Shown piece by piece: positions 2,035-22,131 of a stretch of DNA of 38,377 nucleotides. Below the pieces are notes generated by a model. It worked only from the letters and a program-made list of their open reading frames with translations, ran no database searches and was not told where the DNA came from. A program made the translations under genes and the position numbers. The DNA is taken from the IMG/VR virus record IMGVR_UViG_3300047472_000153, positions 1-38,377 of that record; one strand, written 5' to 3'. This DNA comes from a virus. The first letter of the stretch is position 1. The number at the start of each line of letters is the position of its first letter.

Positions 2035-2076
2035 AAGTAAACCTTTTTCTTGCTCTATATGCTAGACTCCTGCCCG

Positions 2077-2172
2077 CCTCCCGGGAGGTACAGGGCCTTG
2101 GCTTGGTTCACTGCTTACTCAGTGGATTGAGGCTTGCCGAGGGTGTTGACGCACACTCGGCAAGCGCCCTGT
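2077..2172 (+). ncRNA. Candidate structured RNA element A (three-way junction)
   Basis: Read on the plus strand, ACAGGGC (2090-2096) pairs with GCCCTGT (2166-2172). They enclose a 7-bp hairpin TTCACTG/CAGTGGA (2107-2126) and a 9-bp hairpin GCTTGCCGA/TCGGCAAGC (2132-2165) that abuts the closing stem. CUUUU follows. A 12-bp palindrome, CCTCCCGGGAGG, precedes at 2077-2088. One stem has a G-U pair that works only on the plus strand. It shares closing and internal motifs with the element at 22041-22131. It may be an antisense RNA, or a processing or termination structure of the late transcript. No strong plus-strand promoter was found. Confidence 0.45.
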
Positions 2173-2182
2173 CTTTTAACGC

Positions 2183-2410
2183 TTAATTCGGGCCATCCGG
2201 CTCTTCGCTCCCACTCGGCGCGACCACCACAGCGGTCCCATTCCATAGACATTCATCGGCCGAGTAGCCATCTGGCAGCTTCGCGTTGAGGACCTGATAC
2301 TGACCTATGACACTGAGCGGCAGTTCTGCTCCATCGCAGGTCAAACAGTCGGCCGACACGTCGACCTTGGTATAGGGGCCATATACGACGGTACCGGTGA
2401 TGACGATCAT
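2183..2410 (-). CDS. Small protein after the tail fibre, unknown function
   Basis: The 75-residue protein begins with MIVITGTVVYGPYTKVD, has a CLTC pair near the middle and an acidic, Pro-rich C-terminus. Its ATG overlaps the stop of the large fibre-like gene (ATGA overlap at 2407-2410), so it is translated with it. Position suggests a tail-tip accessory or fibre-associated protein. I do not recognise the family. It is the last gene of the tail operon before the structured element and the methyltransferase. Confidence 0.75.
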   Translation of the reverse strand: MIVITGTVVYGPYTKVDVSADCLTCDGAELPLSVIGQYQVLNAKLPDGYSADECLWNGTAVVVAPSGSEEPDGPN

Positions 2411-4674
2411 GCGACCCTCACTTTCTGAATAGTTACGGCGGTGTCGGGCGCTTGGTTGAATGCGATCCAAGCCTCGGAGGAATCAATGCCTTTCGCGGCC
2501 AGCGTCATGTCGGCAATCGGCAACATGCCGCCGTTTGCGGTCGAGAGCACCGATTGCCCGCGATTTACGAATGCCGATTTCGAGCCATCCCCGAGCACCG
2601 CCGCCTGGCCAGTCCCGAGGCTGGCAATAGTATTTCTGGCCACTGCGGTGCGGATATCGGTCGTGCTGGCAGCGCCAGGCGCCGTAGCAACCATCGACAA
2701 TGCACCCGTGCGCGATTCAGCAGCGATAGATAGCGCGGCCGAATCGATGGTAAACATCACCGCTTCTTTCGTGCTGTAGGCAGCGACCGACATCAGGCCA
2801 TTTGCGGAGTTTTGGCCGAAGAATGCGACGGTGGGCGCAGCGCCGAACGCGCGGCGGATCGTGGTTCCCTGCAGCGCACCGTTGACGTCCAAAAAGGTTA
2901 AGTCGATCACGAAACGACCCGAAGCATCCGTGCCCGAGATCACCGCCAGAGCGCCCGATGCGCCGCTTTCCCCGCCTACTGGTATCAAGGTCGCCGACGT
3001 GACCGTCGTAAGCGGCGAGAGCGCGACCGGTGCGGAAAACGCAGGCGTCGTCGCGGCCATCGACAGCAGCGTGCCTTTCATCGTGGTGCCGAAGAGCGAG
3101 ACCATGTAGGTTGCTGCAGCAGGACGCGGATTGATCATAGCTGTTTTGACGTTGCTCGCCGCCGTTGCAGGCGTCGTCGTCGTGCCGCCTGCAGTCTGAG
3201 AGGTGCCCGACATCGTGTAGCCCTTTGCCGTTATCAGCGTGGCCGACGAGGTGAGCACAATATAGGTCGATGTTCCATTCGCCGCGATATTGCCGTTCAA
3301 GGTTTCGTTGACGGGAAGGACAGCACAACTGCCGACAGTCGCATTGGCGACGTCGGTGCCGAGAACCGGAGCGCCTCCCGCACAATCGATGGCGATGGTA
3401 TGAAACGCCGTCGTGCCGACCATGTATGCGAGCAGCGATCCACCGACCAGCCCGTCCAGTGACACCAGCCGCGCGGCCGCTGCGGCCAGTGTGGTGGACA
3501 CTGGCGCATCTACGGTAAGCCCGAGGCCATTGGGATGGACCAAAACCGATTGCAGCGCGGTGGAATTTTCCGTCAACGAACAGATAAGAACGCCGAAGGT
3601 GCGCCATCCGTTCGATGCCAAGGCCGCGACCACGTTGCCGTCGGCGCCGGCCGTAGAGAGCCCCGAGCGGATCAACACAGGCGCTCCAAACTGGTGACTT
3701 GTTTCGTCGTACAGAACTGCATGCACCGATGTCCCGTGGACGATGATCAAATTCAAATTTCCGTTGTTCGGGTCGGCCGCGCACGTACGAATAAACGTGC
3801 CGCCCGTGCCGCCGACCGAGGCGGCCAGGACCAGCTGAGCAAACGCGGTCGTGCCAGTCGCCGACACCCCGCGAAGCGCCCAGGCTCCCGCCTCTGTGGG
3901 GTTGTCGAGCAACTCCGATTGTACTTCGCCACCTGCCGGCGCGAAGCCCAGCAGCTTGCCCGTAAAATCTCTGATCGCCAGGTCAAAGTTCTGGCCGATA
4001 CCGGGGATAGAACGAATGATTGGCTGGTTCTCGGCGCCGAGCATCAGTGTCGTCGCATCGGGGAGATAAACTGACAGGCCGGCCTTTGTAGGCGTTACGG
4101 CGATCAGCCGCGCACTCTCAACCGTTAAAACCAAGTCGGACGAAATCGGGCCTATCATCGAACCGCCGACCGGACCGTCAGCGAACGCCGGACCGGAGAG
4201 GCTGACGATGGCAAATGTCAGGACCGCGTCGGTTTCGGGCGGAACCTGTACGCGCTGCAGGTCGATCAACAGATTGGGCGCGCCGCTGACATCGTCGCCG
4301 TCGTACGACAAGACATCGCCATATGCCCATAGTCGTGCATTGTCGGCGCTGGCCACCTTGACGCTATTGCCCTTCACAAAGCTTTTTCCGGCCGGGATTG
4401 TAAACCAGGTCTCACCAAGAATCATCGGCGTGGCCGTACCATCGGTTGCCGCATTGGTGTTGGGCGACATCGCCGCCGATGCCGCGCTTGTAGCGGCCGC
4501 CAGTGCCGACTGCGCTGCATTCGATACCACCGCGACTGTGTCGGCCGCCAGGCTGCCGAGCGCTACGACGGCGTTATAGCCGATGAACTGATATTCCGGT
4601 GGCACGTTGGCGCTCAGGACGACGACGGGGTCGTTCGTGTAGCGGTGGCCGTTGATCGTGAAATCGATAGACAT
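2407..4674 (-). CDS. Large tail fibre or tail-tip protein
   Basis: At 755 residues, it is the last large gene of the tail module, where receptor-binding fibres usually sit. It is very rich in Ala, Gly, Thr, Ser and Val, with regular beta-strand-like stretches. An Ala-rich segment near residues 40-80 (AADTVAVVSNAAQSALAAAT and on) resembles the trimeric linker seen near the base of fibres. An N-terminal segment INGHRYTNDP may form the tail-binding part. No enzymatic motif, collagen repeat or chaperone domain is visible. The start is the ATG at 4674. Receptor binding is inferred from position and composition. Confidence 0.75.
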   Translation of the reverse strand: MSIDFTINGHRYTNDPVVVLSANVPPEYQFIGYNAVVALGSLAADTVAVVSNAAQSALAAATSAASAAMSPNTNAATDGTATPMILGETWFTIPAGKSFVKGNSVKVASADNARLWAYGDVLSYDGDDVSGAPNLLIDLQRVQVPPETDAVLTFAIVSLSGPAFADGPVGGSMIGPISSDLVLTVESARLIAVTPTKAGLSVYLPDATTLMLGAENQPIIRSIPGIGQNFDLAIRDFTGKLLGFAPAGGEVQSELLDNPTEAGAWALRGVSATGTTAFAQLVLAASVGGTGGTFIRTCAADPNNGNLNLIIVHGTSVHAVLYDETSHQFGAPVLIRSGLSTAGADGNVVAALASNGWRTFGVLICSLTENSTALQSVLVHPNGLGLTVDAPVSTTLAAAAARLVSLDGLVGGSLLAYMVGTTAFHTIAIDCAGGAPVLGTDVANATVGSCAVLPVNETLNGNIAANGTSTYIVLTSSATLITAKGYTMSGTSQTAGGTTTTPATAASNVKTAMINPRPAAATYMVSLFGTTMKGTLLSMAATTPAFSAPVALSPLTTVTSATLIPVGGESGASGALAVISGTDASGRFVIDLTFLDVNGALQGTTIRRAFGAAPTVAFFGQNSANGLMSVAAYSTKEAVMFTIDSAALSIAAESRTGALSMVATAPGAASTTDIRTAVARNTIASLGTGQAAVLGDGSKSAFVNRGQSVLSTANGGMLPIADMTLAAKGIDSSEAWIAFNQAPDTAVTIQKVRVA

Positions 4675-4684
4675 ATTGAGCCTT

Positions 4685-5554
4685 TTAAAATGCTTCTTCG
4701 ACAGAAATTGGAAGAGAATTAACGTTGAGCGAGACGCGCACCGGAGGCCCTAAACTACTGGCCGTGCACATGAACGATTGCCGTTGACGGACGGCTTGCT
4801 CCGCATCGGAATCGTGGATATAAAACATCGGCTTGGACACGCCGTAGCGCCGGACCATTTCAAAAAATCCGCTGTACAGCTCGTCGCCGCTGAGCCAGTC
4901 AAATTGAATCTTGGCCGTCCGGTACGACTGCTGGGGCTCGATGAACTGCGGGCCGCCTTTGGCGCGGGTTTTGGTCGACGGATCGGTGTAATACGGTGGG
5001 TTGCTGCCGTATGAAATCGTGTATTTCGCCGTCAGCGCTGGCGCCGCGACGATCTGACCAACATCGATAAAGCCAGCCGGGTTTTTGGTCCAATCGAATT
5101 GAATATCGAGGTAGCGACCGATATAGGCGGTGTCGGCGACATACATCCATGGGATTTTGTAACCGACGGCGTCTTCGGGCGTCAGGCGGCCATCAACCCA
5201 TTCGACCCGCGTTGGATCGAGTGTGCCAAACGGATAAATCACGCCGAAAAATTCCAGCCAGCCGGTGTCGATGACCGCGTCGGTCAAGGCCGCATCGGTG
5301 CAGACGCGAATGCGGGCACGATCAAAGGTGCTGGCGTTATGTAGAGGAATGGCCAGCACCTGTACGTTGCGCAGCGTGCCGAGGTCGATAACCAGGCGGG
5401 AGCCGGCCAGGTCGGTTGCCGGATAGCGGGCCATTTCGGACAATACATCGCCCGACAGCTTGTCCAGGTCGATCCAATTCTGACCGGTGAACAGGGGCGT
5501 TACGAGCGACGTCGGTAACGTCCAGTTGGGAAAGCAAAATTTCGGTGATGCCAT
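4685..5554 (-). CDS. Tail-tip protein
   Basis: The 289-residue protein lies between the 533-residue tip protein and the fibre. It contains beta-rich segments such as ATDLAGSRLVIDLGTLRNVQ and a WLEFFGVIYPFGTL region, resembling the carbohydrate- or protein-binding folds common at siphovirus tail tips. It has no catalytic motif that I can see. The start is the ATG at 5554; an upstream in-frame TTG at 5569 is unlikely because it overlaps the preceding gene's end. The spacing to both neighbours is a few bases, which indicates one operon. Confidence 0.7.
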   Translation of the reverse strand: MASPKFCFPNWTLPTSLVTPLFTGQNWIDLDKLSGDVLSEMARYPATDLAGSRLVIDLGTLRNVQVLAIPLHNASTFDRARIRVCTDAALTDAVIDTGWLEFFGVIYPFGTLDPTRVEWVDGRLTPEDAVGYKIPWMYVADTAYIGRYLDIQFDWTKNPAGFIDVGQIVAAPALTAKYTISYGSNPPYYTDPSTKTRAKGGPQFIEPQQSYRTAKIQFDWLSGDELYSGFFEMVRRYGVSKPMFYIHDSDAEQAVRQRQSFMCTASSLGPPVRVSLNVNSLPISVEEAF

Positions 5555-5556
5555 GA

Positions 5557-7158
5557 TTAACCCCAGCAAGTAATTTCAGTTTTTCGCGTTTGCCGGTCGA
5601 TCATCACGCCGGCAACGCGCATCAGACGTCCGGCGCCGAGGTTCCAGCGAGGTTGCGTGACTCTGACCACCGATCCGGCACGCACCAGGTCAATCTGGTC
5701 GGCCGACAGCCAGAGCGAGATAGTCGGCATGTAACGCGCGGCGCAGTACATGGCAAATTGCGCGCTACAGAACGCCTGCGCCGCCGTTGGGTCGGCGATC
5801 AGGGAAGTCAGCTCTAACGTGATCGCGTTCAGGTAAGCCGCTTGCACTGTGATATCTGTTGCCGACGCGGTGCGATATTGAGAGTTGAGCCAGGCGCGGG
5901 CAGCGAGGCCGGTGCGAGCGCCCGGTGCGGTGACCGGGTCGGTCGCGCTCGATGCGTCGCCGCCCAGGTCGGCATCCGTTTGGGTGGTCCAATTGCGGCC
6001 GTACGACAGATTTAGCAGGTAGGCCGGGGCGACGTTGCCGTTGCCGATAGGGTCTTCGATATCGATGGTATCGGTGCGCAGCGCCGTCAAGTTCGCCACT
6101 GGCAACCCCGTTGGCAAGCTCCATTGCGTCAGACGATACGTGCCGAACTGGTCGCCGTACCAGGCACAGGCCGCGCTGTTTGCCACTTCGGTCAAGGCAT
6201 CGCTGACCTGTGCCTCGTCCAGGGACGCATATTCAACCTCGGCCGGCAGCGCCAGGTCTAGCGCGGCGATGTCGGTTGCAGAAATCGTTTTGATATCTAC
6301 ACCGGCATATGTCAGGATGCGTGCCCAGGTCTGCGCGTGTGTCCGGTCCGCAGCCGCGCCATACGCGGCGTCGCAAGTGAGGCCATGTGTAGCGCTGCTG
6401 CCGGTACGCACATAGGTGCCGTCGGTGGTGTTGGCCAGCACGCGGTACTGGCCAGCGGCCGGCGCCGTGGCCATCATGTCCGCCATCGACGCATACGCGG
6501 CGCCGGCCGTCATCGCCACGCCGCCGTCGCGCACAGCATTGACGTTGACGGGCATCGCACCGCAAGGAATCGACACCTGGTAGACCAGCTTGCTCGTGTT
6601 GCACAATACCGGCGTCATGTTCGAGCAAAGCGCCCACACAATGGGCTTTACCTTGGCGGCCAGGTCATCCAATCCTTCGACGCCGTCGGGCAGCACATTG
6701 GTGCCGGCATATCGCACCGTTTGCAAGGTCTTGCTTTGTGCGGTGGTCAGGTCGGCTGGGTGAAAGGTGATCGATGTGTTATCGAACAGCGGCTGGCCAG
6801 TAATCGTGCCGTTGATGACGGTCACATAGCCGGCCGGGTATGGCGCGCCGCGCTCGCCGATCCGCACCACGATGCTGCGGCCGTCGAACGCGTAGCCGAT
6901 CAGTTTGGCGCCGAGTTCACCGCTGGAATCGTCCAGAACACATTCACCAGGTGTGACGCGGGCGTATTGGCCCGGCGCCGTATAGACGTCGATGCGGCAC
7001 CAGCCCGGGTCAGTCAGAAACGGCCGAAACAGCGCATTGGCCGGCGTCTCGCTTGGCAACGTGCGGTATGCCAGCCCATCACAAAAGCGCAAGACTTCGA
7101 CCTGTCCACTGGCCAAGTGATAACCCGTGATTTCGACAAGTACGATTTGATCGCTCAT
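5557..7158 (-). CDS. Tail-tip / tail hub-like protein after the tape measure
   Basis: The 533-residue protein directly follows the tape measure, with its ATG overlapping the tape-measure stop (7155-7158). In D3112/B3-type and other siphophages this place is held by distal-tail and hub proteins that close the tube and carry the fibres. The first half is beta-rich (MSDQIVLVEITGYHLASG) and the second half ends in a segment on residues such as RQTRKTEITCW. No peptidase or muramidase motif was found. Function is inferred from gene order. Confidence 0.72.
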   Translation of the reverse strand: MSDQIVLVEITGYHLASGQVEVLRFCDGLAYRTLPSETPANALFRPFLTDPGWCRIDVYTAPGQYARVTPGECVLDDSSGELGAKLIGYAFDGRSIVVRIGERGAPYPAGYVTVINGTITGQPLFDNTSITFHPADLTTAQSKTLQTVRYAGTNVLPDGVEGLDDLAAKVKPIVWALCSNMTPVLCNTSKLVYQVSIPCGAMPVNVNAVRDGGVAMTAGAAYASMADMMATAPAAGQYRVLANTTDGTYVRTGSSATHGLTCDAAYGAAADRTHAQTWARILTYAGVDIKTISATDIAALDLALPAEVEYASLDEAQVSDALTEVANSAACAWYGDQFGTYRLTQWSLPTGLPVANLTALRTDTIDIEDPIGNGNVAPAYLLNLSYGRNWTTQTDADLGGDASSATDPVTAPGARTGLAARAWLNSQYRTASATDITVQAAYLNAITLELTSLIADPTAAQAFCSAQFAMYCAARYMPTISLWLSADQIDLVRAGSVVRVTQPRWNLGAGRLMRVAGVMIDRQTRKTEITCWG

Positions 7159-10100
7159 GCGGCCACCCTCGGCCTGGTGGCCATGACTTTGCCAAGATAC
7201 TGTGTCTGCTTGCGGATATCGGCCGACGTGGCGCTGCTGCCGAGCTGCTTGTTGATCGAGTCGAGCAGTTTGTTCTGGTCATCGAGCAGTTTGTTCTGCT
7301 GGTCGACCATGTCGGCCTGGCGCTGCACCGCTGCAGGCGTCGCCACATTGGCCGCGGATTGGACCGGCGCGGCCGTGGTCACCGACCTGGACGAATTCAT
7401 GGCCTTCCAGATAGCATTCTGACCGGCCGTCAACACGCCCTCGCCCTGGTGTAACTCGGCGTAGTAGCCATCGAAGGGCACATTAGCCAGGCCGTTAAAG
7501 TGCGAGCCATGCAACTTGACGTATTCTGGCGACGACTCGATGCCGGCAGTGATCTGCGCAAGCGTCTGTCCCGAATCAAGCGCGTTGGTCCAAAATGCCA
7601 GGCCCGCATCATCGCCCGCGACCGACCGCCCCAACAAACTTTCATAAAGCGAATTGATGACGCCGGTTTCGGCGGTGCTGGCCGTGGCGGTGTCGGCGTC
7701 GCCGCTGCCAGGCGTTAAATCATTGGCGGCCGTGGCGCTCGCTTTTAACGCTGTGGTCAGGTCGAGGATCGCCTGCAGCACCTGGTCGGTGGTGGTGTTG
7801 AGGTCGACCAGCTGGCCGACCTCGTCCGTCATCGCATCAAGCTGCGCCTGGTCGGCTGAAATTTGCTTTCCGGTCGAGGCGGCGAGCGCGGTCAGGTCCG
7901 ACTGCACCTTCGCCGCGTCGTTCGCATATGCCTGCGTCGAGCCGTTATATGCCTTGTCGGCGGTGAGATATGCCTGTGCCGCCGCCGAGAGCTGGCCCTG
8001 CGCGGTGGCGTCGCCGCTGTTGGCCAGCGACAGCGTACTTTCGTACGTCTGCTTGGTCTCAGCGAGTTTCTGTTCAGGGCTGAGCGATGACAGGTCGCCC
8101 GTGTCCAGGCTTTCCTTTAGGTTCAGTACGGTGTCCTGGAACTGCGTCAGCTTGTCGATCACATCCTGTTGCGCCGACGCCTCCGATTTATAGGCGGTCA
8201 CCAGGTCGTCGCTCTTGCTCAAGACATCGGCGGCGGCCTGCGCCGCATAGAGCTGTTTCGTCAATGCCGCCATTGCTGGCGACAGCGCTTCAAGTGCGAG
8301 CTGATGCTGTTGTTCCAGGATGGCTGCGGCGCCGGCAGCATCGCCGGTCGCCGCGAAGATTTGGGATTGCAGGTCGAGCTGGTCGGAAAGTTCGTCAGGG
8401 TGTGTCTGCGCGAACGCACTTTCTAACTGCATCAGCGATTCAAATTCTTGCTCGCCGGCGGCGGTGGACAGATCAAGGCTGTCGACGACGTCTTTAAATT
8501 GATCTTTGGTCGTCACGCTGGAAAGGCCGAGAGCATCCATGGCGTCCGATACTGCCTTTGTTTCTGGCGCCAACTTTTGAGCATCGGTGAGGTAATCGCT
8601 GGCAAAGGATGCCGCCTGAGAATTGAGCGTATCGGCGCCGCCAGCTAGCAATATCAGCTGGGCGCGTGCACCCTCCGAGGCCAGGCCAACGGCGCCAAAC
8701 GCCGAAGCCGCATCCTTGCCAAGGAAACTGGCCACCTGGTTGGTGGCGGTGAATTCCTCGGTTACGCGATTGAGCGCAACGCTCGTCGCCTCGGTCGGTG
8801 CTTTTAACGCGGCGATGTCTTCGAGCGTTACCTGCGTACCAAAGATCGCCTGGCCGGAGTCCTTGAGCGAATTGCGATAAGTCAGCAGTGCCTCGGCCTC
8901 GGTGGCCAGCTGTTCCGACGTGCCGCTAAAGCCCGCCTCAAGCTGCCCGAGTGCGGGATCAACAGCGTTCAAAATCGTGGTGATGCGGTCGGCGAACACG
9001 GCGTCGAGCTGGCCCGAAGCATTCTGGTCGGTCCCCTCGGCGCCGAGGTGGACTGAGTCCGTGTGGTCGGACAATGCTGCCGTGACGTCAGCTTTTTCCG
9101 ACGTCGTCAACAGGCTGGCCAGCGCGTCGTCGGTGGTCGAGACATTCTTGATGAGCGCCTGCACTTCCGACGAATTTGTATCGGACCAAAAACTGGACGA
9201 GACGCCGAACGTGCCAAAAGAGGATGTGCCGTAGCCGCCAATATAAGGATTGGTCGACTGGCCTTCGTTGCCACGCTCGTTGATACTGATATTGCCAGGA
9301 TCGTTGTTACTGGCGAAGGTCAGGCGCGTGTCGCTTTCTGGTCCATCCCCGCCACCGAAGATGGAATACGCCGCCAGCGCGGCCAGGCCGACCCAGCCAA
9401 CTGGGCCGATGGATGCCAGTGCCCCCTCGGCGCCGGCCGCGCCCGCTCCCGCTGCCGCAGCGCCACCTTCCGCAGCACCGGCAGCGGCGACGCCGCTTTC
9501 AGCCGCTGCGGCCGCCGTGCCTGCGGCTGCGCCAGCTGTGGCGCCGGCCTCTGTCGCGGCCGACGTCCAGCCTTCCAGCGACGCCAGCGTGCCGATGGCA
9601 TCGCCGCCAGTTGCGCCGGCCACATTCGCCGCCAGCACCGACGTCGGCGCGACCGAGGTCGAGCCAGCGAGCCAAGCACCGATTGAGCCTGAACCCGTGG
9701 CCGTGATGGCGGTGTAGGCCGATTTCGCCGTATTGACAGCGTTGATAAGGCTACCGATGCTGCCTGAGGCCGACGCAGCGGCGGAGCTTTGCGGCGCGGT
9801 CGGATTGAGGATCGACGCGGCCAACGTGCCGACGAAATTGATGGGGATGTTCAGAGCCTGGCTGACCAAAGTGGTCTTCAGCTTTTTCCACGCATTTGCG
9901 CCACCATTGGCGATAGCATCGGCGAGCGTTTCCTCAACGTGCTTGGCAGTTGAGTCCCAGGCGGCCGACGCGGCCTTCGAGGCATCGGCATTGGCCTGCG
10001 CTACCGCATTTGAGCCCAGCACCGTGGCCAACTGCTGGCGGGCCGCGATCTGTGCATTGATCTGGCTGAGAACGTCCGTGTAGATTCCCCGTGCCGCCTC

Positions 10101-12677: not shown

Positions 12678-12682
12678 TAATA

Positions 12683-13380: not shown

Positions 13381-13444
13381 ATGTTCTTCTCTTTCGCGGT
13401 GGTGGGTGGTAAAAAATTGCTCGGCGTGCGGTGAGCGTTAAAAA

Positions 13445-14401: not shown

Positions 14402-14402
14402 A

Positions 14403-14612
14403 TCAATTCTCCTTCGATTGTTGGGACATTTGTTCTTGCGGTGCTGTTTCGGCCGGCGTGGTGTCCGGCGCCGAGGCGGCACTCGGTTGCGTTGCCGCCG
14501 TGGCCTCGCCGGCCGGAGCCCGCGCACCGGATTGCGGGTCAACGACGTAGCGCCCGCCGATGCCCCAGTACGGGTCGCCGATGAACTGCAGGCCGGTATC
14601 GGTGTTCAACAT
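14403..14612 (-). CDS. Small Mu gp38-like protein (DUF2635-like)
   Basis: The 69-residue protein has a conserved-looking head, LNTDTGLQFIGDPYWGIGG, and a low-complexity Ala/Pro/Thr tail. It lies between the gp37-like gene and the tail tube, the place of the small gp38-type gene of Mu-like phages. AGGAG lies six bases before the ATG at 14612, better spaced than for the GTG one codon earlier. Role unknown; position suggests tail or neck assembly. Confidence 0.65.
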   Translation of the reverse strand: MLNTDTGLQFIGDPYWGIGGRYVVDPQSGARAPAGEATAATQPSAASAPDTTPAETAPQEQMSQQSKEN

Positions 14613-15028
14613 CACATGCTCCTGTCATAAAAGGCGGTGACATACACGTCCTGCCACCACATGTAGCCGTCCTTAAACAGCATCAGATTGGCCGCGCCGC
14701 GCTGCAATGGATCGCACTCGGCGTTCGGTTGCCAACCCAGCAGCGACGCCTTGACGGCCTGGCGCAGCACCGTCATGTCCAGGCCGGCCGCCACGCCCTG
14801 CGCGTCGCTGACGTTGCGCACCACCAGCATCACGGCCACCTTGGCGGTTACGCGCTGCAGGACGATGTTCACGTTCTGGTTTGGCGCAGCGTCCTCCTCC
14901 AGCGGAAAAACGAAAGCGCATGGCGTCAGGTTCGGATTCTTTTCAGCGGCGGCCTGGAAGGCGGCGGCGCCCCCCACCAGTTTCAGTTCGGCCACGCTGC
15001 CCAGGCGATCAATGATTTCCTGGATCAT
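14612..15028 (-). CDS. Mu gp37-like protein (DUF1834), tail terminator or neck
   Basis: The 138-residue protein begins MIQEIIDRLGSVAELK and ends QDVYVTAFYDRSM. Its size, fold pattern (helix, then beta strands with a helix) and place after the gp36-like gene match the gp37/DUF1834 proteins of Mu-like phages, thought to act at the head-tail junction. Its ATG at 15028 overlaps the stop of the upstream gene (ATGA). The open frame extends upstream but only as an overlap with that gene. Confidence 0.75.
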   Translation of the reverse strand: MIQEIIDRLGSVAELKLVGGAAAFQAAAEKNPNLTPCAFVFPLEEDAAPNQNVNIVLQRVTAKVAVMLVVRNVSDAQGVAAGLDMTVLRQAVKASLLGWQPNAECDPLQRGAANLMLFKDGYMWWQDVYVTAFYDRSM

Positions 15029-15429
15029 GGCCGGCCCGCCCGTTTGAAGACCGAAGGCGAGCTGGTGTAAAGCACGGTTGCCGCGTCCGTATTGCCCGGT
15101 AGCTGCGCCGCGCCGACCAGGGCGAAGCGGCCAGCCTGCACGTCCTTCAACCACAACAGCGCGTCCTTGTAGTTGTTGCGTGCGGCGTCGGATGCGGATT
15201 CACCCAGCAGGTTGTAACGGGCGATGGTGCATGCCACCTGGGGAATCACGGCCGGGACCGGCTGCAGCGGGACGCTGTAACGCCCGCTGACATAGCCATC
15301 GATCATGGCCGAGGCATCCGCCAGGCGCTGGTCGACGGCGCCGGCCGGCAGCACCGACTCTCGCTGACTAACCTCGTCTTCACCGAACAGGTCGGCAAGG
15401 TCAGCCCGGGTTGCGTACGCGGTGGTCAT
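15025..15429 (-). CDS. Mu gp36-like protein (DUF1320), head completion
   Basis: The 134-residue protein has the DUF1320 pattern: MTTAYATRADLADLFGEDE at the N-terminus, a LADASAMIDGYVSGRYSVPL helix and strand, and a VACTIARYNL segment. In Mu-like phages this gene follows gpT and is thought to be a head-completion or connector protein. It lies three bases after gpT and overlaps the next gene by four bases. Confidence 0.85.
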   Translation of the reverse strand: MTTAYATRADLADLFGEDEVSQRESVLPAGAVDQRLADASAMIDGYVSGRYSVPLQPVPAVIPQVACTIARYNLLGESASDAARNNYKDALLWLKDVQAGRFALVGAAQLPGNTDAATVLYTSSPSVFKRAGRP

Positions 15430-15432
15430 GGA

Positions 15433-16356
15433 TTACTGACCGGTGCCAGTGCTACCGAAGCCCAGCTGCCAGAAGCCGTAACCGCCCGCCGCACGCGCTT
15501 CAGCACCGAACTTGTACTTCTTGGTGGTGAAGACGAGCTCGCTGTTCAGGTCGGTCTGGCTGACGAAGACCGCCTTTTTGCGTTCCTGGTAGATGAACGG
15601 CATGATGGGCTTGGTGCAGTCGAGCAGGAACCAGGCCGTGTCCGACGTTAGGCGCGCGTCTTCCACCACTTCGGCGGTGTTCTTGTACGGATTGGGCTCC
15701 TGGTCGGCCAGCTTGTCGCTTGTCATCAAGAGGCGGGCCGCATCGCCCAGCGCGGGAGGAACCAGCAAGATGGTCGGTGTGATGTTGAGCGGACGGCCTT
15801 CGTCATCTGCCATCTTGCGCATGGCCACGCGGGCAGCACCGTAACCGGCCTGGGCCAGCGCGAGCGAAGCGATGGAGAGAGGTACCGTGCTCATATTGGA
15901 CACGGTGATGGCCTTGCCTTTCGCATCCTTCGCCGGATGGCTGGTCGAGAAAAACGGCTGACCATCAAAGCACTTGTTGACGAACGCGCCGTTGGCCAGT
16001 TCCATGACGATTTCGTCGGGCAACTGCGAAGCCGAAAAGCCGGCGCCCTGTGCCTGAATCGAGTACATGCCGGTTTGGTCGTCGTCCAGGTCGTTGCGGT
16101 CAACTTCGACCGTCGCTTCCCAGTCGTCATTGACGACGCTGTATTTGCTGGCGGCCAGCGACTTGACATTCTTCTCGCCGATCCAGCGGCGCATCTTCGG
16201 AAAGCGGCTCAACCAGGCGTAGTCATTCTGGCTGCCGGTCGACGGCACGAGCATGGCGATTTTCTGCCAGACGGTTTGCGTACCGGTGAACGCGTTGTTG
16301 AACGTGGTCTTCAGGATGATGAAGAACGACGTTACGTTTTCTTTGTTGATTAACAT
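15433..16356 (-). CDS. Major capsid protein, Mu gpT family
   Basis: The 307-residue protein is close to the usual length of Mu gpT. The N-terminus MLINKENVTSFFIILKTTFN and the PKMRRWIGEKNVKSL segment are characteristic of the Mu-type major head subunit, as are the motifs FFSTSHPAKD and a C-terminal KKYKFGAEARAAGGYGFW. It forms the icosahedral shell with an HK97-type fold. Upstream are the protease/scaffold and the decoration-like gene, and downstream the gp36-like gene. Confidence 0.93.
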   Translation of the reverse strand: MLINKENVTSFFIILKTTFNNAFTGTQTVWQKIAMLVPSTGSQNDYAWLSRFPKMRRWIGEKNVKSLAASKYSVVNDDWEATVEVDRNDLDDDQTGMYSIQAQGAGFSASQLPDEIVMELANGAFVNKCFDGQPFFSTSHPAKDAKGKAITVSNMSTVPLSIASLALAQAGYGAARVAMRKMADDEGRPLNITPTILLVPPALGDAARLLMTSDKLADQEPNPYKNTAEVVEDARLTSDTAWFLLDCTKPIMPFIYQERKKAVFVSQTDLNSELVFTTKKYKFGAEARAAGGYGFWQLGFGSTGTGQ

Positions 16357-16412
16357 ACTTGCCTCTAATTAGAAGGATGGTGTTGGACTGCGGTTGCCTG
16401 GCCAAGCTGCGG

Positions 16413-16811
16413 TTATTCGATCCAGACGCCGTTCGAGTCGATGCCGACGATGCGGCCGGCCGCCGAGCGCGTATTGCCGCCGTTGGTCTTGCCCACGGTT
16501 TCGTCGTCAACGATGTAGGCGGTTTTGTACATGTCGGCCTGCGTGATCAGGTCAGCTGCTGCGTTGAACCATTTGAAGGCTTTCTTGCGGCGAACCAGAA
16601 CCATGGCCGCACCGTCGGCGCCCAGGGTGTTGTCCACGTACGCATCGGCGCGGCCAACGTAGGTCAAGGTCGTGGCGACCTGCCCATTGACGGCGTAGCC
16701 GGTGGCGTTGACGCACACAATGGCGCCCGCGAAAATCCGGGTGGCGGCCGCGACGGCCATTGGCATGACGCCGTTGTCGCGGTATTCGGTATTGCGGTCT
16801 GCAACTAACAT
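16413..16811 (-). CDS. Head decoration or capsid cement-like protein
   Basis: The 132-residue protein is almost entirely short beta strands (MPMAVAAATRIFAGAIVCVN, then GYAVNGQVATTLTYVGRADA) and lies between the protease/scaffold and gpT, where many Mu-like phages carry a cement protein. The C-terminus, GRIVGIDSNGVWIE, fits a small outer-surface domain. It should bind the assembled capsid and stabilise it. The start is the ATG at 16811. The family was not confirmed by any search. Confidence 0.65.
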   Translation of the reverse strand: MLVADRNTEYRDNGVMPMAVAAATRIFAGAIVCVNATGYAVNGQVATTLTYVGRADAYVDNTLGADGAAMVLVRRKKAFKWFNAAADLITQADMYKTAYIVDDETVGKTNGGNTRSAAGRIVGIDSNGVWIE

Positions 16812-16853
16812 GGTGCTCTCCGATTGAGTGGGTAGAGGAACGCGACGATGCGA

Positions 16854-17432
16854 TTAGGCTTTTTCGGCGTTCAGCGTTTTGAGGAAATCGTCTTGCGCCA
16901 CGCCCATGGCGGTGCACAGCGCGATTTGGCTTTCGGTGAGCGTGCTTGCTGCGCCAGGCGCCACGACGCCGGCCGTCTGCATACCGGTCAGCGCAGCGAG
17001 CTTGGGTGCATTGCTCAGATAGCTGGTCAGCGCCGCGACGTCCTTGCCGCCGAATTCGCGCGCCCAGCCTTCCATCGACGGCAGCAGACGGCCATCTTTC
17101 AGCGCGGTGCCGATGGCGTCGTTCACGCGCCCCGTATTGATTTCGTTGGTCAATGCAGTGACCTGGTCGCGCAACGTGGTCACGGTGGCGATGTCGACAT
17201 ACTTGGCAGGATCTGGGGTGGCGCTGGCCGTGGCGATGCTGGCGGTCAGGCTGGCAATCGTGGTGCGCTGGTCCGTCACCAGGGCGATCAGGTCGCAGCT
17301 CGCTGCGGCCTGGCTGTCCTGGCCGTTCTGGATTGTCGTCTGCAGCTTGCCCAGCTGGGCAGAGACGTCAGCGGCGGTGCTGCCCACGGGCAGATTGAGC
17401 AGCCAGATCAGCTGTTCGAGCAATTCGTTCAT
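16854..17432 (-). CDS. Internal scaffold start within gpI (Z-like)
   Basis: An in-frame ATG at 17432 (residue 185 of gpI, MNELLEQLIWLLNLPVG) has GGAG nine bases upstream and would give a 192-residue protein made of the helical scaffold half alone. Mu makes its scaffold gpZ in this way from within gene I. Use of the start is inferred from the ribosome site and the Mu precedent. Confidence 0.55.
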   Translation of the reverse strand: MNELLEQLIWLLNLPVGSTAADVSAQLGKLQTTIQNGQDSQAAASCDLIALVTDQRTTIASLTASIATASATPDPAKYVDIATVTTLRDQVTALTNEINTGRVNDAIGTALKDGRLLPSMEGWAREFGGKDVAALTSYLSNAPKLAALTGMQTAGVVAPGAASTLTESQIALCTAMGVAQDDFLKTLNAEKA

Positions 17433-17984
17433 GGTGGAAGACTCCAGGGTTAATGCGGCGTTGTGGGTAAATTGAAGCGATGCGGCCGCCAGCAGGACTT
17501 CATCCATGCCGCCGATGGCCGGGTTATTGGTGACGGCCGCCATCAACAGTCCGGTGACGGCGCCGCTTTTGTCGTAGGCGATGACCGGCGAGATAAATTT
17601 GTATTCGCCGCCAGCAATCATTGCCTTGGCCGAAGCGGTCCATTCGACGTCGACGGCGTACAGGCCCGATCCTTCGCGCCATTCCAGCTTGTGGAACCAG
17701 CCGGCAGCGGGCGCGGGCTGGCCATTCGTCTTGGCGTGCAGGGTCTGGTGTTCGTAGTCGATGACATAGGGATTGGGTCGGGCGGTGGCCGCCGCGATCA
17801 GGTTCTGTGCCAGGGCGGCATCGAGGCGCCAGGACGGCGCGTTATGGGGCCGGCCATCGAACGCATGGAACTGGCCGGCCGGCATGAGCTGAATCTCCGT
17901 GCCGCTGGCCAGGCTCATAGAACAAGCGGCCACGGCCATCAAGGCAGCGGTGAAAGGTGGATGTTTTGGTGTTTTCGATGACAT
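16854..17984 (-). CDS. Prohead protease and scaffold, Mu gpI family
   Basis: The 376-residue protein matches the Mu I architecture: an N-terminal protease domain with EIQLMPAGQFHAFDGRP near residue 30 and VIDYEHQTLHAK near 75, then a helical scaffold half rich in Ala, Thr and Leu. The protease cuts itself and head proteins during maturation, and the C-terminal half guides shell assembly. The start is taken as the ATG at 17984. No clear Shine-Dalgarno sequence is seen there, so a nearby start is possible. The gene lies directly after the bidirectional terminator region, so its transcription needs readthrough or a local promoter. Confidence 0.85.
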   Translation of the reverse strand: MSSKTPKHPPFTAALMAVAACSMSLASGTEIQLMPAGQFHAFDGRPHNAPSWRLDAALAQNLIAAATARPNPYVIDYEHQTLHAKTNGQPAPAAGWFHKLEWREGSGLYAVDVEWTASAKAMIAGGEYKFISPVIAYDKSGAVTGLLMAAVTNNPAIGGMDEVLLAAASLQFTHNAALTLESSTMNELLEQLIWLLNLPVGSTAADVSAQLGKLQTTIQNGQDSQAAASCDLIALVTDQRTTIASLTASIATASATPDPAKYVDIATVTTLRDQVTALTNEINTGRVNDAIGTALKDGRLLPSMEGWAREFGGKDVAALTSYLSNAPKLAALTGMQTAGVVAPGAASTLTESQIALCTAMGVAQDDFLKTLNAEKA

Positions 17985-18086
17985 GCCGCCATGTTGTCAG
18001 GCGCGCGCGAGGAAGTAAGACTGGCAAGCGTCACATCTAAAAATTGCCGCTAGTAATCGAAATGGCGGAGGAACTTTCCAAATGGA

Positions 18087-18134
18087 ATGCCCGTAGAGGC
18101 CGTTACAAGGCCGTTAATAGCCGTTTTCGGGCAT
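18087..18134. repeat. Hairpin enclosing tandem GGCCGTTA repeats
   Basis: ATGCCCG (18087-18093) and CGGGCAT (18128-18134) form a 7-bp inverted repeat around two perfect GGCCGTTA copies (18098, 18109) and a third variant (AGCCGTTT, 18119), at a spacing of 10-11 bp, one helical turn. That spacing suits cooperative protein binding. The 250-base gap 17985-18233 holds this, the terminator next to it, and no gene that I can support. Confidence 0.4.
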
Positions 18135-18162
18135 CGGATGGGGCAATGCCGCCCCCGGGGGT

Positions 18163-18198
18163 AAAAAAATGCCTAGAAACTGCTTCTAGGCATTTTTT
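18163..18198. terminator. Strong bidirectional intrinsic terminator
   Basis: ATGCCTAGAA and TTCTAGGCAT form a perfect 10-bp stem with loop ACTGC, flanked by seven A on the left and six T on the right. It therefore works as a Rho-independent terminator on either strand. It follows the stop of the gene at 18234-18791 and closes the inserted hydrolase module on its downstream side. Confidence 0.9.
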
Positions 18199-18233
18199 CG
18201 GTTTGGAAACTTTATGCTGTGTTTAGTGCCGAT

Positions 18234-18791
18234 TTAGAACGTAAAAGCGTAATCCCAAACGCCTGGCGTTAGAAGCCCTGGCAGCAGATGCAGCTTTCCG
18301 GGCACAGCGAAACAATGCTTGTTCGACGTGAGCGCATAAACGCCACCGGCCACCGTGATCAGCACTCCCATTGGCAACCCATAGTTCCACTCGATGCTGT
18401 CGCCGTTATCGCGACGCCGGGCCAGGAAACGGACATAGCGACCGTCGCAAGGAATCTTGTCCCAAACGGTCAACGTCAGCGGCACCGTCGCGTTCGCCGT
18501 GACGATGACCTGGTTGTTGCAAGCGAGCTGGTTGGCTGCTTGCAGGTCGCGGCCCCACAGCGCTACTGGCTGGTCAATGCCTGCGGCACCCGTGCCAGGT
18601 ACGGTAATGACATCATCGCCGCCTGCTACTGGTGACGAATCGACGACCGAGATAACCTGGGTATTTTTTGTTACCGCCGCGCTGGTCTGCATTGTGACGA
18701 GCGTGGCGTTCACGGTCAGAGTGCCGAACAATTGTGGCTGCAACGGGTCGGTGACGCGAGCGAAGTTTGTTACGGTTTGATCGATAGCCAT
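18234..18791 (-). CDS. Virion-associated protein of the inserted module, unknown
   Basis: The 185-residue protein begins MAIDQTVTNFARVTDPLQPQ and is beta-rich throughout, with no catalytic motif seen. It follows the SGNH-domain protein by two bases and has AAGGAG eight bases before its ATG. The terminator at 18163-18198 ends the unit. Composition and company suggest a structural or fibre-like surface protein working with its two upstream neighbours. I do not recognise the family. Confidence 0.7.
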   Translation of the reverse strand: MAIDQTVTNFARVTDPLQPQLFGTLTVNATLVTMQTSAAVTKNTQVISVVDSSPVAGGDDVITVPGTGAAGIDQPVALWGRDLQAANQLACNNQVIVTANATVPLTLTVWDKIPCDGRYVRFLARRRDNGDSIEWNYGLPMGVLITVAGGVYALTSNKHCFAVPGKLHLLPGLLTPGVWDYAFTF

Positions 18792-18793
18792 AC

Positions 18794-20539
18794 TTATTCT
18801 CCTTGGAAAGCGGCAAGGGCAACGCCCTTCATATACGGTTGGCCCACGGCGGGATTGGGGTGCGTGCCGTCGGTCGTGTTGAGCATCGTCGCGTTGATCC
18901 AGCCAGCCTCGATGTCGATGATGCGATAGCCCCCTTTGACGGCGTTGTCACGCAGGCGCTGGTTCAGCGCGAGAATGCGCGACTTCGTGGTGGCAGTGGC
19001 GAAAGTGCCAGTCAGCCCGGCGTAGGTCAGCCACACGTAGACGCGCTTGCCGGCTTTCTTGCACATGCGGATGTGCGCCAACAGGGTCGCCTCGATACCG
19101 GCGATATAGGCATCGGTAACACGGGCGTCACTGAAGTTGTTGGAGCTAAATGACGGCAACAGGATATCGGTCAATTCCGGTGTCGCTCGCAATTGGGTAC
19201 GCAAGGTGGCCAGATATTGGTCGGCAATCATGGATGACGCGCCGAAGTTCACGGCGTAGCATGGCGCCTGCGGTGTGGACAAAGCACGTACGGCGTCCTG
19301 CCACCAGTTGTACGCCTCCGTGATCGAGTCGCCGAAAGCCCCGAAATTGCGCACCGGGATACGATGGTCCAGGAACAAGCCGATGTTCGGCCAGGCACCG
19401 CCCGTCGTCGGATCGTAGCCCGTCGTGGCCCCCATAGCGACGGTAGGGTCCGTGACGATATCGGCCGTGGTAGCCAAGCTTGGGCAATAAAACAGCCGGC
19501 CGGCGCCGCCAACGTATTTGGTGTACTCGTTGACAACATAGCTCACGCCAGCGTTGCTTTCCGACTCGCCGATATTGGAATCGTGGTTATAGGCCAGGAT
19601 GCCGAGAGGACGGACACCTGTCGTAGGCGCCACCGTGATAATGGGAATCTCATCGCTGTCGATGTAGTTGGTGTCAGTTTCGGCGCCGCGACCGGACGCA
19701 GTGCACCCGCCTGGATGAACGAAACCCGATTGCGGCGCGCCACCCCAAGTCACAGGATTGAACCCTAGCGGGTCGCCCGTGCTCGCCAGCACGTTATGCG
19801 TGACGCCCGCGACGGTGGGCGTGATGGTACCGGCCAAGTCAGCAGCCGTCACGGTGGCTGAGTCGGTCGGCGCGAAACTGCAGCGGACGGTAGACATGCC
19901 CGATTGCGGCTCTTTGTTATAGACCCGTACGCGCAGGCTATATGCGAGGCCTTCCATCTGGAACTTGATACGGCGCGACAGGCGAGCAATCGGCGCGGTC
20001 AGGACCGAACCAATCGAGTACCAGGCTTGATTGCCCTGAATCTTCATCAGACCGATAGTGTTAATTTCGCCGCGCATTTGACGCAGGAAGGTGACGTCGG
20101 CGCCAGTCCACTGGCCGGCCGGGTGATCGACCTTGAACTTGTACTGCGCTCCAGCATAGATGCAAATGCTGTCGGCCTTGAAGTTCACGTCGGGCCGAAA
20201 CTCTGTGGCACTACCGACGATCAGATTCGACATTAGCCGCGCACTGATGCGAACCTCGAACTTGTCGCCGGCCTTCCATGCCGCCGCCGTGCCGTCGGTG
20301 GGCCTGACAATGGTCACAACGTCGCCGGCCACGGCGGTGATGCGGACGAGTTCCCAGCTAGTTTCCGAAGAGCCAGCCGCAGCGGTCGATTGTGTGAGTG
20401 TCCCTTCCACGTAGTCGCCATTGGTCAGCGCCGGCAACTTGGCGCCTGCGCCGGCCGAGAGCGTCGCGGTCGTTGCGGCAGCGGTAAGCGCCTGGGCGAG
20501 TACGGATGCAAAATTATTTACAATCAATTGCTGGTTCAT
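18794..20539 (-). CDS. Structural protein with C-terminal SGNH/GDSL hydrolase domain
   Basis: In this 581-residue protein the first 100 residues (MNQQLIVNNFASVLAQALTA, then Ala/Thr-rich) look like a phage attachment segment. The C-terminal third carries the SGNH blocks: GDSIT at 403-407 (Ser405), NFGASS with Gly433, SSNN with Asn467, and DGTH with Asp557 and His560. All catalytic and oxyanion residues are present. SGNH enzymes are esterases or deacetylases, so a virion-bound form could remove O-acetyl groups from surface polysaccharide during adsorption; the substrate is inference. It is placed between gpG and gpI, unusual for a fibre or depolymerase. Confidence 0.85.
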   Translation of the reverse strand: MNQQLIVNNFASVLAQALTAAATTATLSAGAGAKLPALTNGDYVEGTLTQSTAAAGSSETSWELVRITAVAGDVVTIVRPTDGTAAAWKAGDKFEVRISARLMSNLIVGSATEFRPDVNFKADSICIYAGAQYKFKVDHPAGQWTGADVTFLRQMRGEINTIGLMKIQGNQAWYSIGSVLTAPIARLSRRIKFQMEGLAYSLRVRVYNKEPQSGMSTVRCSFAPTDSATVTAADLAGTITPTVAGVTHNVLASTGDPLGFNPVTWGGAPQSGFVHPGGCTASGRGAETDTNYIDSDEIPIITVAPTTGVRPLGILAYNHDSNIGESESNAGVSYVVNEYTKYVGGAGRLFYCPSLATTADIVTDPTVAMGATTGYDPTTGGAWPNIGLFLDHRIPVRNFGAFGDSITEAYNWWQDAVRALSTPQAPCYAVNFGASSMIADQYLATLRTQLRATPELTDILLPSFSSNNFSDARVTDAYIAGIEATLLAHIRMCKKAGKRVYVWLTYAGLTGTFATATTKSRILALNQRLRDNAVKGGYRIIDIEAGWINATMLNTTDGTHPNPAVGQPYMKGVALAAFQGE

Positions 20540-20548
20540 ATATAGGCC

Positions 20549-21469
20549 TTAATGTGAGTTGACGGAGAAACCATTGACCGTCTGGGCGGATGGTGAAGAA
20601 ACGACAGGCGTGCTACCACCGGGGGTAACGCTGTTTGATGGCAAGGAGAAATCGCCTACGCCGAGCAACGTGATCGCGGCGACGCTCGCCGTGACCGGAA
20701 CGCCTGACGGTAAAGCGTAGAACGTGAGAGAGGATGCAAAGACGGGCGCAGGCAATCGTTCGCCATTCGACAGGACGACGAGGTAGCCAAGCACAGGCAG
20801 ACCGCCGACATGGACGGGCAACTGCGTCCAGTGGGCGGTCACGTCGTTGCCCGATAGCGTCAGTGCGCCAATCGTAGGCGCCTGCGCCTTGCCCTTCGCC
20901 GCCGAGACAAACGCCAGCGCGGCCGGTTGGGCAAAGCCCTGGCTCGCCTTGCCGGTTATCGTTAACGGCCCGTCGGCGGCCGGCGTGTAGACAAACGATG
21001 CCGACGCCGCGCCAAAACTAAGATCAGCACTTGCCGGCTCAAATTGTCCGCCTGCACCGCCGTCGCTCGGCGTGAACGTAAAGGGCGAAAAGTAGCCGCC
21101 TGCGGGCGTTACCGCGACGGTGATCGCGTCCGACGGCTCGCCGACAGTGCCTGTCGCCGCGCCGGTGATGGCAAGGCCCGTCGCGGCTGTACCGACCAGA
21201 AGAGGCGCTGATTCCGTTTGAAGCAGACCGCCGTTCCAAGTCTTGGTGATCTTATAGCTGCGGCCGTTGCGGTCCGGGCCGTAAGTGATCGTTGCCGGAT
21301 TGCTGTTCGCGTCATAGGTGTACGCCTTCGGCAAGGAGCTGGGATCGAAGGTATAGAGCCCAGATGACTCCGTGACGCTGCCCAGCGTCAGGGTGCGCCC
21401 CTGGCTATCGACAATGGCAACAGCGTCGACCTTCTGCAGGTCCGGTAAAGTCTCGTCTTTGTAGGTCAT
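20549..21469 (-). CDS. Beta-rich structural protein with Ig/FN3-like repeats
   Basis: The 306-residue protein starts MTYKDETLPDLQKVDAV, and its central part, VGEPSDAITVAVTPAGGYFS and following, and its C-terminal part, APTIGALTLSGNDVTAHW and following, look like bacterial Ig-like and fibronectin III-like domains. Such domains on virions bind surface sugars weakly. It is the first gene of the three-gene module inserted between gpG and gpI. The ribosome site is weak. The exact family is not certain. Confidence 0.65.
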   Translation of the reverse strand: MTYKDETLPDLQKVDAVAIVDSQGRTLTLGSVTESSGLYTFDPSSLPKAYTYDANSNPATITYGPDRNGRSYKITKTWNGGLLQTESAPLLVGTAATGLAITGAATGTVGEPSDAITVAVTPAGGYFSPFTFTPSDGGAGGQFEPASADLSFGAASASFVYTPAADGPLTITGKASQGFAQPAALAFVSAAKGKAQAPTIGALTLSGNDVTAHWTQLPVHVGGLPVLGYLVVLSNGERLPAPVFASSLTFYALPSGVPVTASVAAITLLGVGDFSLPSNSVTPGGSTPVVSSPSAQTVNGFSVNSH

Positions 21470-21496
21470 ATGGTTCTTTCTTGCAGTGCGTTGCGA

Positions 21497-22018
21497 TTAG
21501 CCCTGGAGATAGTCACGCAACTGGTTGATGATCAATTCCTGTTCGTCTGGGTACAGATTCCCGTCAGCGGTGATGGGCATGTACTGGCGCGCGGGGATGT
21601 CGCCCCACAGGTGCGAATAGATGGCCTTCTTGCCGCCGAACTGCATCATTGCGGCGTAGACCATGGTCGAGCCCACCGTTAAAGAGTTGGCCGTAGCCTG
21701 GTAAATCTGCTGGCGCGCCAGGTCGCCCGACTGCCCCTGCAGCGGGCGTTTGTTCGCCGCCAGCACCTGGCCCTTGGCCAGAATCTTTCCGGTCTTGCCC
21801 GAGAACGCGCCGCGCTTGCTCAGGTAATTCATAATGGTTGCCTGGGTGTTCGCCTTCCAGCGAACGCCGTCAGGGCCTGTGCTGGTGGCGAAGCGCTGTT
21901 TGACCCGGGCGACCATGTCTTCGCCGACGGCGCCGAGGTATGGCTGGGCGTTCTCGACGCGTTCCGACATCTGCGTCAGGGCGTCGGTCGATCCTGTGAC
22001 GGTGATAGATGTGCTCAT
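21497..22018 (-). CDS. Virion morphogenesis protein, Mu gpG family
   Basis: The 173-residue protein has the phage virion morphogenesis pattern: MSERVENAQPYLGAVGEDMV, a GVRWKANTQATI segment, and a C-terminal FGGKKAIYSHLWGDIPARQY. In Mu, G acts in tail-head joining or tail completion (P2 S-like). It follows gp30 as in Mu. A 109-base gap with structured element B separates the two genes. Confidence 0.87.
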   Translation of the reverse strand: MSTSITVTGSTDALTQMSERVENAQPYLGAVGEDMVARVKQRFATSTGPDGVRWKANTQATIMNYLSKRGAFSGKTGKILAKGQVLAANKRPLQGQSGDLARQQIYQATANSLTVGSTMVYAAMMQFGGKKAIYSHLWGDIPARQYMPITADGNLYPDEQELIINQLRDYLQG

Positions 22019-22028
22019 AAAATTGGTC

Positions 22029-22034
22029 TATACT
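22029..22034 (+). promoter_or_regulatory. Candidate -10 for structured RNA B
   Basis: TATACT on the plus strand matches the -10 consensus in five of six bases and lies seven bases before 22041, where the closing stem of element B begins. The -35 region (TAGATG at 22006-22011, 17-base spacing) matches only three of six. A promoter here would make an RNA starting exactly at the stem. Confidence 0.35.
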
Positions 22035-22040
22035 CGGTTG

Positions 22041-22131
22041 ATGGACAGGTGAGGCGTGGAAATTCGGAGTCCACGCGCACGGGCAGCTATGCCATGTGGA
22101 TGAGGGGACGTCCGGCCCTCCGCCTGTTCAT
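22041..22131 (+). ncRNA. Candidate structured RNA element B (cloverleaf)
   Basis: On the plus strand ATGGACAGGTG (22041-22051) pairs with CGCCTGTTCAT (22121-22131), 11 pairs including two G-U that would be mismatches on the other strand. Inside are GCGTGGA/TCCACGC (22054-22076), GGCA/TGCC (22082-22093, extended by CAC/GTG) and GAGGG/CCCTC (22102-22120). The gap between gp30 and gpG holds nothing else. Shared motifs ACAGG, GTGGATGAGG and GCCTGT link it with element A at 2077-2172. Candidate antisense RNA; function unknown. Confidence 0.5.

Follow-up and report, generated by a model that had tools for sequence, protein, structure and literature searches.

We found a conserved structured RNA on the plus strand of a 38.4-kb contig of a Mu-like transposable phage, opposite its late genes and just upstream of a gene for a Dam-type DNA adenine methyltransferase. 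The contig is IMG/VR virus record IMGVR_UViG_3300047472_000153, and its full length of 38,377 nucleotides is referred to here as the window. The RNA, termed element 1 (2060-2178), is a candidate small RNA (sRNA) of about 95 nt, one hairpin of which carries a same-sense copy of the translation initiation region (TIR) of the methyltransferase gene. We believe, with modest confidence, that element 1 acts as a two-faced RNA switch on the phage methyltransferase, or on com, the activator gene that precedes the methyltransferase in some phages. The features on which the argument draws are the following.

1246 to 2034, minus strand: gene for the Dam-type DNA adenine methyltransferase of 262 amino acids (PHROG 56, E 4.8e-92), presumably the regulated gene
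2037 to 2043, minus strand: TIR partner of the copy, GGTTTAC, located between Shine-Dalgarno site and ATG (2034 to 2032) of the methyltransferase
2060 to 2068, plus strand: extended -10-like box TGC-TAGACT (TGCTAGACT), hexamer at 2063 to 2068, from the alignment of homologues
2077 to 2088, plus strand: palindromic 5' hairpin CCTCCCGGGAGG, from the homologue alignment
2090 to 2096 with 2166 to 2172, plus strand: closing stem P1, from covariation
2102 to 2113 with 2120 to 2131, plus strand: middle hairpin P2, rich in G·U pairs, stable on the plus and broken on the minus strand
2105 to 2111, plus strand: same-sense copy GGTTCAC of the methyltransferase TIR, from permutation tests in 31 lineages
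2132 to 2177, plus strand: terminator-like end, made up of the last hairpin P3 (2132 to 2165, loop TGTTGACGCA), the 3' strand of P1 and a CTTTT tail

The start-site copy in P2 is a new finding. In nearly all lineages the 5' arm of P2 resembles, in same-sense orientation, the TIR of the gene that follows, and the copied sequence differs between lineages (GGTTCAC/GGTTTAC in the window; elsewhere GGCTCAC, GCTCGCA, GGCTTGCA, GGTTCACAG, GCTTTTG, CCCAC or GAAGCATGCA/GAAACATGTA). Across 31 lineages the copy varies together with the downstream TIR (z 4.85, permutation p = 2e-5; p = 1e-4 with 18 lineages); the lineages share kinship, so that these p-values serve as guides, and the start codons of the compared loci were assigned by rule. 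A reverse-complement copy of the TIR was not significant in the same 31 lineages (z 0.4). A direct duplex between sRNA and TIR was rejected as well, as the 31 lineages gave no lineage-specific signal for it (z -0.5).

The complement of the copy, here called anti-TIR, lies in the mRNA leader on the minus strand, and the duplex of leader and TIR is lineage-specific (z 5.2, 31 lineages). When the read-through leader was folded together with the start region, TIR and anti-TIR shared 5.39 expected base pairs in native combinations versus 1.82 in swapped ones (z 7.06), and the predicted mRNA fold of the window pairs GTGAACC with GGTTTAC. Because P2 is rich in G·U pairs and about 6 kcal/mol weaker on the minus strand, the copy arm would be held in the hairpin in the sRNA but left unpaired in the leader. 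The plus-strand structure, its location, the TIR copy and the predicted leader pairing are thus all computed features of these loci.

BLAST searches with the bare sequences of element 1 and of a second structured RNA of the window, element 2, returned almost no matches, and homologues were therefore reached via the flanking genes. For element 1 these were 80 viral contigs with a related methyltransferase, 25 of which were used to build a covariance model. This model matched element 1 in 67 of the 80 methyltransferase loci, and every match lies upstream of the methyltransferase, or of com where com comes first. In two contigs (L085 and L087) the methyltransferase has a different location, and element 1 directly precedes it at that second site. 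All 13 named phages with a homologous methyltransferase that we examined carry the element: Pseudomonas phages B3, UMP151 and Lodos, Vibrio phage VP882, Halomonas phage phiHAP-1, Burkholderia phages KS9 and BgVeeders33, Acidovorax phage Aval, Shewanella phage MuM16-1, Stenotrophomonas phages S1 and Bhz63, E. coli phage PhiKM and an Acinetobacter phage. In VP882 (EF057797) the element maps to 20854-20969 on the minus strand. The com-mom region of Mu gave no match to the model. An unbiased scan of 299 Pseudomonadota genomes yielded four matches, each of which adjoins a methyltransferase, three of them together with com. The closest relatives of the window phage itself lie within Oxalobacteraceae and Burkholderiaceae genomes.

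The structure is strongly supported by covariation. Among 92 aligned members the covariation score of element 1 is 0.680 versus 0.222 after shuffling, double changes occur at 35 of the 36 pairs with 94% of cells paired, and sliding the partners against each other abolishes the signal. P1, which encloses both P2 and P3, shows compensatory changes at all seven of its pairs (98% of cells paired). A preliminary description of this DNA had already proposed that the element folds better on the plus strand and that G-U pairs favour this strand. Both points hold: in the window the predicted energy is -51.7 kcal/mol on the plus strand (z -4.85) versus -43.8 on the minus strand, and the homologues decide the matter with 486 G·U versus 43 A·C cells on the plus strand, a count of cells that are not independent since the members are related. 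This excess assigns the RNA of element 1 to the plus strand. P2 contributes 222 G·U versus 5 A·C cells, and its region folds at -16.9 kcal/mol on the plus and -10.6 on the minus strand (mean of 31 lineages); the whole sRNA folds better on the plus strand in 31 of 31 lineages (-52.7 versus -39.3). With a conserved structure opposite the gene strand, element 1 has the mark of a cis-encoded regulatory sRNA, and the earlier notion of a cis-encoded antisense RNA is sound in its case.

Both ends of the element are conserved on the plus strand. The -10-like box, overlooked in the preliminary description, is kept in homologues as TGNTANNNT or TANNNT at constant spacing to the 5' hairpin; no consensus -35 box was found, and a simple sigma-70 scan calls nothing at this site. 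At the 3' end the stem and T-run are visible in the alignment, and a simple terminator scan made no call there. The 5' hairpin is a perfect palindrome of at least 6 bp in 89 of 92 members, with a sequence that differs among phages. Its palindromic tetraloop (at 2077-2088 and in the homologues) varies in sequence among relatives, the forms including CCGG, CGCG, GTAC, TCGA, TGCA and AGCT. This could possibly serve RNA dimerisation; a DNA operator is unlikely, because the palindrome persists while its sequence shifts freely among close relatives.

The proposed switch would use the two strands of the same DNA in different ways. On the plus strand, an independent sRNA of about 95 nt would be made from its own host-type -10 box to the terminator-like end. 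On the minus strand, this DNA would become the 5' leader of the methyltransferase mRNA when late transcripts of the upstream genes continue into it. The G·U-filled P2 would form in the sRNA and collapse in the leader, so releasing the anti-TIR, which could then base-pair to the start site, located about 65 nt further on, and prevent its translation. Annealing of the sRNA to the complementary leader would free the start site, or expose it via RNase III cleavage. The outcome would be low methyltransferase synthesis from read-through mRNA, with the output set by the level of the sRNA. The model directly predicts that the sRNA activates, since the start site would open once the leader pairs with it; the sign of this effect is deduced from the model, and the sRNA may instead repress via RNase III decay.

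Several points weigh against this switch. It needs an sRNA whose transcription we infer and a late mRNA whose read-through on the minus strand is predicted. About 10 of the 31 lineages (e.g. L043, L052, L139 and L179) show little predicted TIR pairing, and the part of the TIR that the copy spans is variable, being the spacer, the Shine-Dalgarno site or the start codon. The TIR comparison as a whole builds on the rule-called start codons. Among 20 loci of phages with com, the copy matches com more closely than the methyltransferase in just 10, with five worse and five ties, a result that is in part due to misplaced start codons. Finally, the strand contrast in TIR pairing (5.4 versus 3.0 bp) is not independent evidence, because P2 is weaker on the minus strand by construction.

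Element 1 might also be an ordinary cis-encoded antisense sRNA, which binds the leader in the lysogen and, through RNase III decay, keeps the methyltransferase (or com) repressed, much like a type I antitoxin, with the TIR copy being secondary. We regard this as rather unlikely. The divergent position immediately upstream of the gene would suit such a repressor, the replacement of the element by LexA boxes in nine relatives is suggestive of one, and its last and middle hairpins resemble SymR, an antisense repressor. However, complementarity between sRNA and TIR has no lineage-specific component (z -0.5), and with a promoter 20-40 nt upstream of the gene the sRNA stays clear of the start site. 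The coevolution of the TIR copy would also be left unexplained.

No Rfam family fits element 1, and SymR (RF01809), the best one, stays below its cut-off with 25.5 bits in the window and 34.1 bits in the L062 element (L123), at a gathering score of 61. The likeness lies in the two hairpins, the second of them terminator-like with a GUGUUGNCGCAC loop, in the antisense strand at the 5' side of a gene and in the LexA boxes that occupy the element 1 gap in some relatives; symE is controlled by the SOS response. Element 1 differs by the closing stem around both hairpins, by the palindromic 5' hairpin and by its place beside the methyltransferase start site instead of across it. Membership in the SymR family was rejected, as the target is a Dam-type methyltransferase and not symE, and the sRNA has its 5' end upstream of the start site.

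The LexA-like boxes (CTGT-N8-ACAG) were seen 16-25 bp before the methyltransferase start in nine relatives without element 1 (L010, L020, L021, L022, L027, L032, L035, L036 and L038). Judged by this motif, they suggest SOS control of the phage methyltransferase in these nine relatives and the replacement of one regulator by another, as well as a methyltransferase gene that is commonly under tight control.

It appears improbable to us that element 1 is a decoy, its TIR copy titrating some third partner, either RNA or protein, of the methyltransferase or com start site (e.g. Com or a host sRNA). Such a decoy would account for a copy that is same-sense and fixed in its position within the sRNA. 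Com binds CC(N)2-3GAG in hairpin loops beside the Mu mom start site (PMC6483171), and phage decoy sRNAs are known, such as AgvB, which mimics GcvB targets (PMC12197685). Yet both the copied sequence and the part of the TIR that it covers vary by lineage, a pattern to be expected of base pairing more than of a protein site; element 1 also occurs where no com gene is seen, and the leader already is a perfectly complementary partner in cis. That only the minus-strand leader matters, as a translation-inhibiting structure, with the plus-strand fold a by-product of a near-palindromic layout, is very improbable: leader:TIR pairing is indeed the strongest lineage-specific signal (z 7.06), but the G·U pairs favour the plus strand (486 versus 43), the conserved -10-like box and T-run tail exist on that strand only, and it folds better in all 31 lineages.

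The two-faced switch has partial parallels in known systems. In Mu, translation of mom is held by a structure at the start site (translation inhibition structure, TIS) and released by the Com protein (PMC6483171). This system likewise concerns a phage DNA-modification gene with a start site buried in mRNA structure (PMC6483171), and element 1 precedes com in B3-like phages; in Mu, however, the opener is a protein, whereas the inhibiting arm at element 1 is the complement of an sRNA gene. Type I toxin mRNAs typically have structured leaders that hide the ribosome site (PMC11228461). In TimR/timP, too, an sRNA is matched by an mRNA in which the leader keeps the ribosome site concealed until it is opened (PMC11228461), but such antitoxin sRNAs are complementary to their targets, while element 1 holds a same-sense start-site copy and has a non-toxin target.

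A relation of the two elements to the C4 antisense RNAs of phages, which the preliminary description had considered, could not be upheld: neither stretch (301 and 181 bases) matches RF01695 even at E<=10, in a search that recovers, in the related phage L048, a true C4 RNA (63.5 bits) and a copy below threshold (34.0 bits). C4 RNAs resemble element 1 as small phage antisense RNAs with a closing stem and inner hairpins, but the C4 copies of L048 are RNAs separate from element 1. Nor does element 1 share the C4 trait of loops that are complementary to the ribosome site region of an antirepressor (ant) mRNA: the downstream gene is the methyltransferase, and the sRNA:TIR complementarity has a z of -0.5. 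On the minus strand of L048 we noted the true C4 RNA (923-1009), a weak C4-like copy beside element 1 (2714-2796) and an isrK-like stretch (1028-1112).

Phage DNA methyltransferases guard the DNA of an incoming phage against restriction, and their premature synthesis can disturb the host, which makes their timing important. To our knowledge, the timing of these enzymes outside Mu com-mom is largely unknown. An RNA family that is unlisted in Rfam and stands before the methyltransferase in the well-studied phages B3, VP882 and KS9 is a concrete candidate for such timing, and the coevolving start-site copy gives a clear, testable mechanism. More tentatively, these RNAs could represent a widespread class of double-sided phage switches, with an sRNA holding a decoy start-site copy on one strand, an anti-start leader arm on the other and G·U pairs creating a one-strand hairpin, which jointly time phage DNA methylation. 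We know of no description of such strand-selective G·U use in the openly licensed papers that our literature search covered.

Element 2 is an antisense-strand RNA separate from element 1. It lies among the late genes, which are encoded on the minus strand and include terminase, portal, minor head, neck, head, tape measure, tail and methyltransferase; the window also encodes a transposase and a B-like protein.

21497 to 22018, minus strand: neck gene
22029 to 22034, plus strand: -10-like box TATACT of element 2; most homologues have TATAAT or TATACT in this position
22041 to 22131, plus strand: element 2 RNA, with closing stem 22041-22051/22121-22131 and hairpins 22054-22076, 22078-22098 and 22102-22120, from covariation
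22065 to 22114, plus strand: predicted kissing loop of CGGA (22065-22068) with TCCG (22111-22114)
22128 to 23555, minus strand: minor head gene

Its fold, too, is better on the plus strand (-43.7 kcal/mol, z -3.0) than on the minus strand (-31.1, z -1.0), as first proposed, and the TATACT box was correctly placed about seven bases before the stem. Homologues, gathered via the minor head gene and DNA patterns, give a covariation score of 0.408 versus 0.162 shuffled (22 distinct sequences); the loop pair is fully (100%) paired, and in three sequences A-U has become C-G by a double change (CGGA/TCCG to CGGC/GCCG). Where flanks are readable, the element is mostly found at the 3' end of the minor head gene, on the opposite strand. 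In four contigs (L086, L089, L090 and L091) it is cleanly absent between the same two genes, like a removable insert.

The preliminary description had treated both elements as one family of antisense RNAs, whereas our data point to two unrelated ones: within the window, the model of element 1 matches 2060-2178 only, and that of element 2 matches 22027-22137 (plus strand) only. The ACAGG/CCTGT stems and GTGGAT(T)GAGG strings are indeed present in both. In element 2 relatives, however, the stem carries other sequences, and the second string is a hairpin 3' arm in element 1 (GTGGATTGAGG) and a junction plus the start of the next hairpin in element 2 (GTGGATGAGG). Since the stem is replaced and the strings fill different structural positions, their sharing is coincidental.

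By sequence and predicted fold, element 2 resembles skipping-rope RNA, a name reportedly given by Weinberg in 2017, with a score just under the threshold of this family (RF02924; 33.4 bits, E 1.7e-6 in 181 bases, gathering threshold 36.7). The cmscan alignment recovers the skipping-rope topology of a closing stem, a hairpin, a variable stem and a hairpin with a 9-nt loop, and element 2 likewise has three hairpins within a closing stem, loops of 9 nt in the first and last of them, and the motifs GAGG, GGAAA and GAUG. The skipping-rope model found no match in two close element 2 homologues (L111 and L118), and our element 2 model (R2) misses a genuine skipping-rope RNA in L218.

In four contigs (L095, L096, L098 and L217) tRNA-like RNAs that have a T-arm (GGTTCGAATCC) lie in the element 2 gap beside the minor head gene or close to it; on the plus strand of L217, tandem element 2 copies (357-461 and 541-649) flank the tRNA-like sequence. 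Identity of the elements as tRNA was rejected, as ARAGORN calls none in the window or in the minor-head loci. For the tRNA-like RNAs, ARAGORN makes no call in L095, L096 and L098, and the Rfam tRNA model reaches only 19.8 bits in L098. The latter contig, which has a related minor head gene, contains an above-threshold Rfam sRNA-Xcc1 match at 5079-5164 (plus strand).

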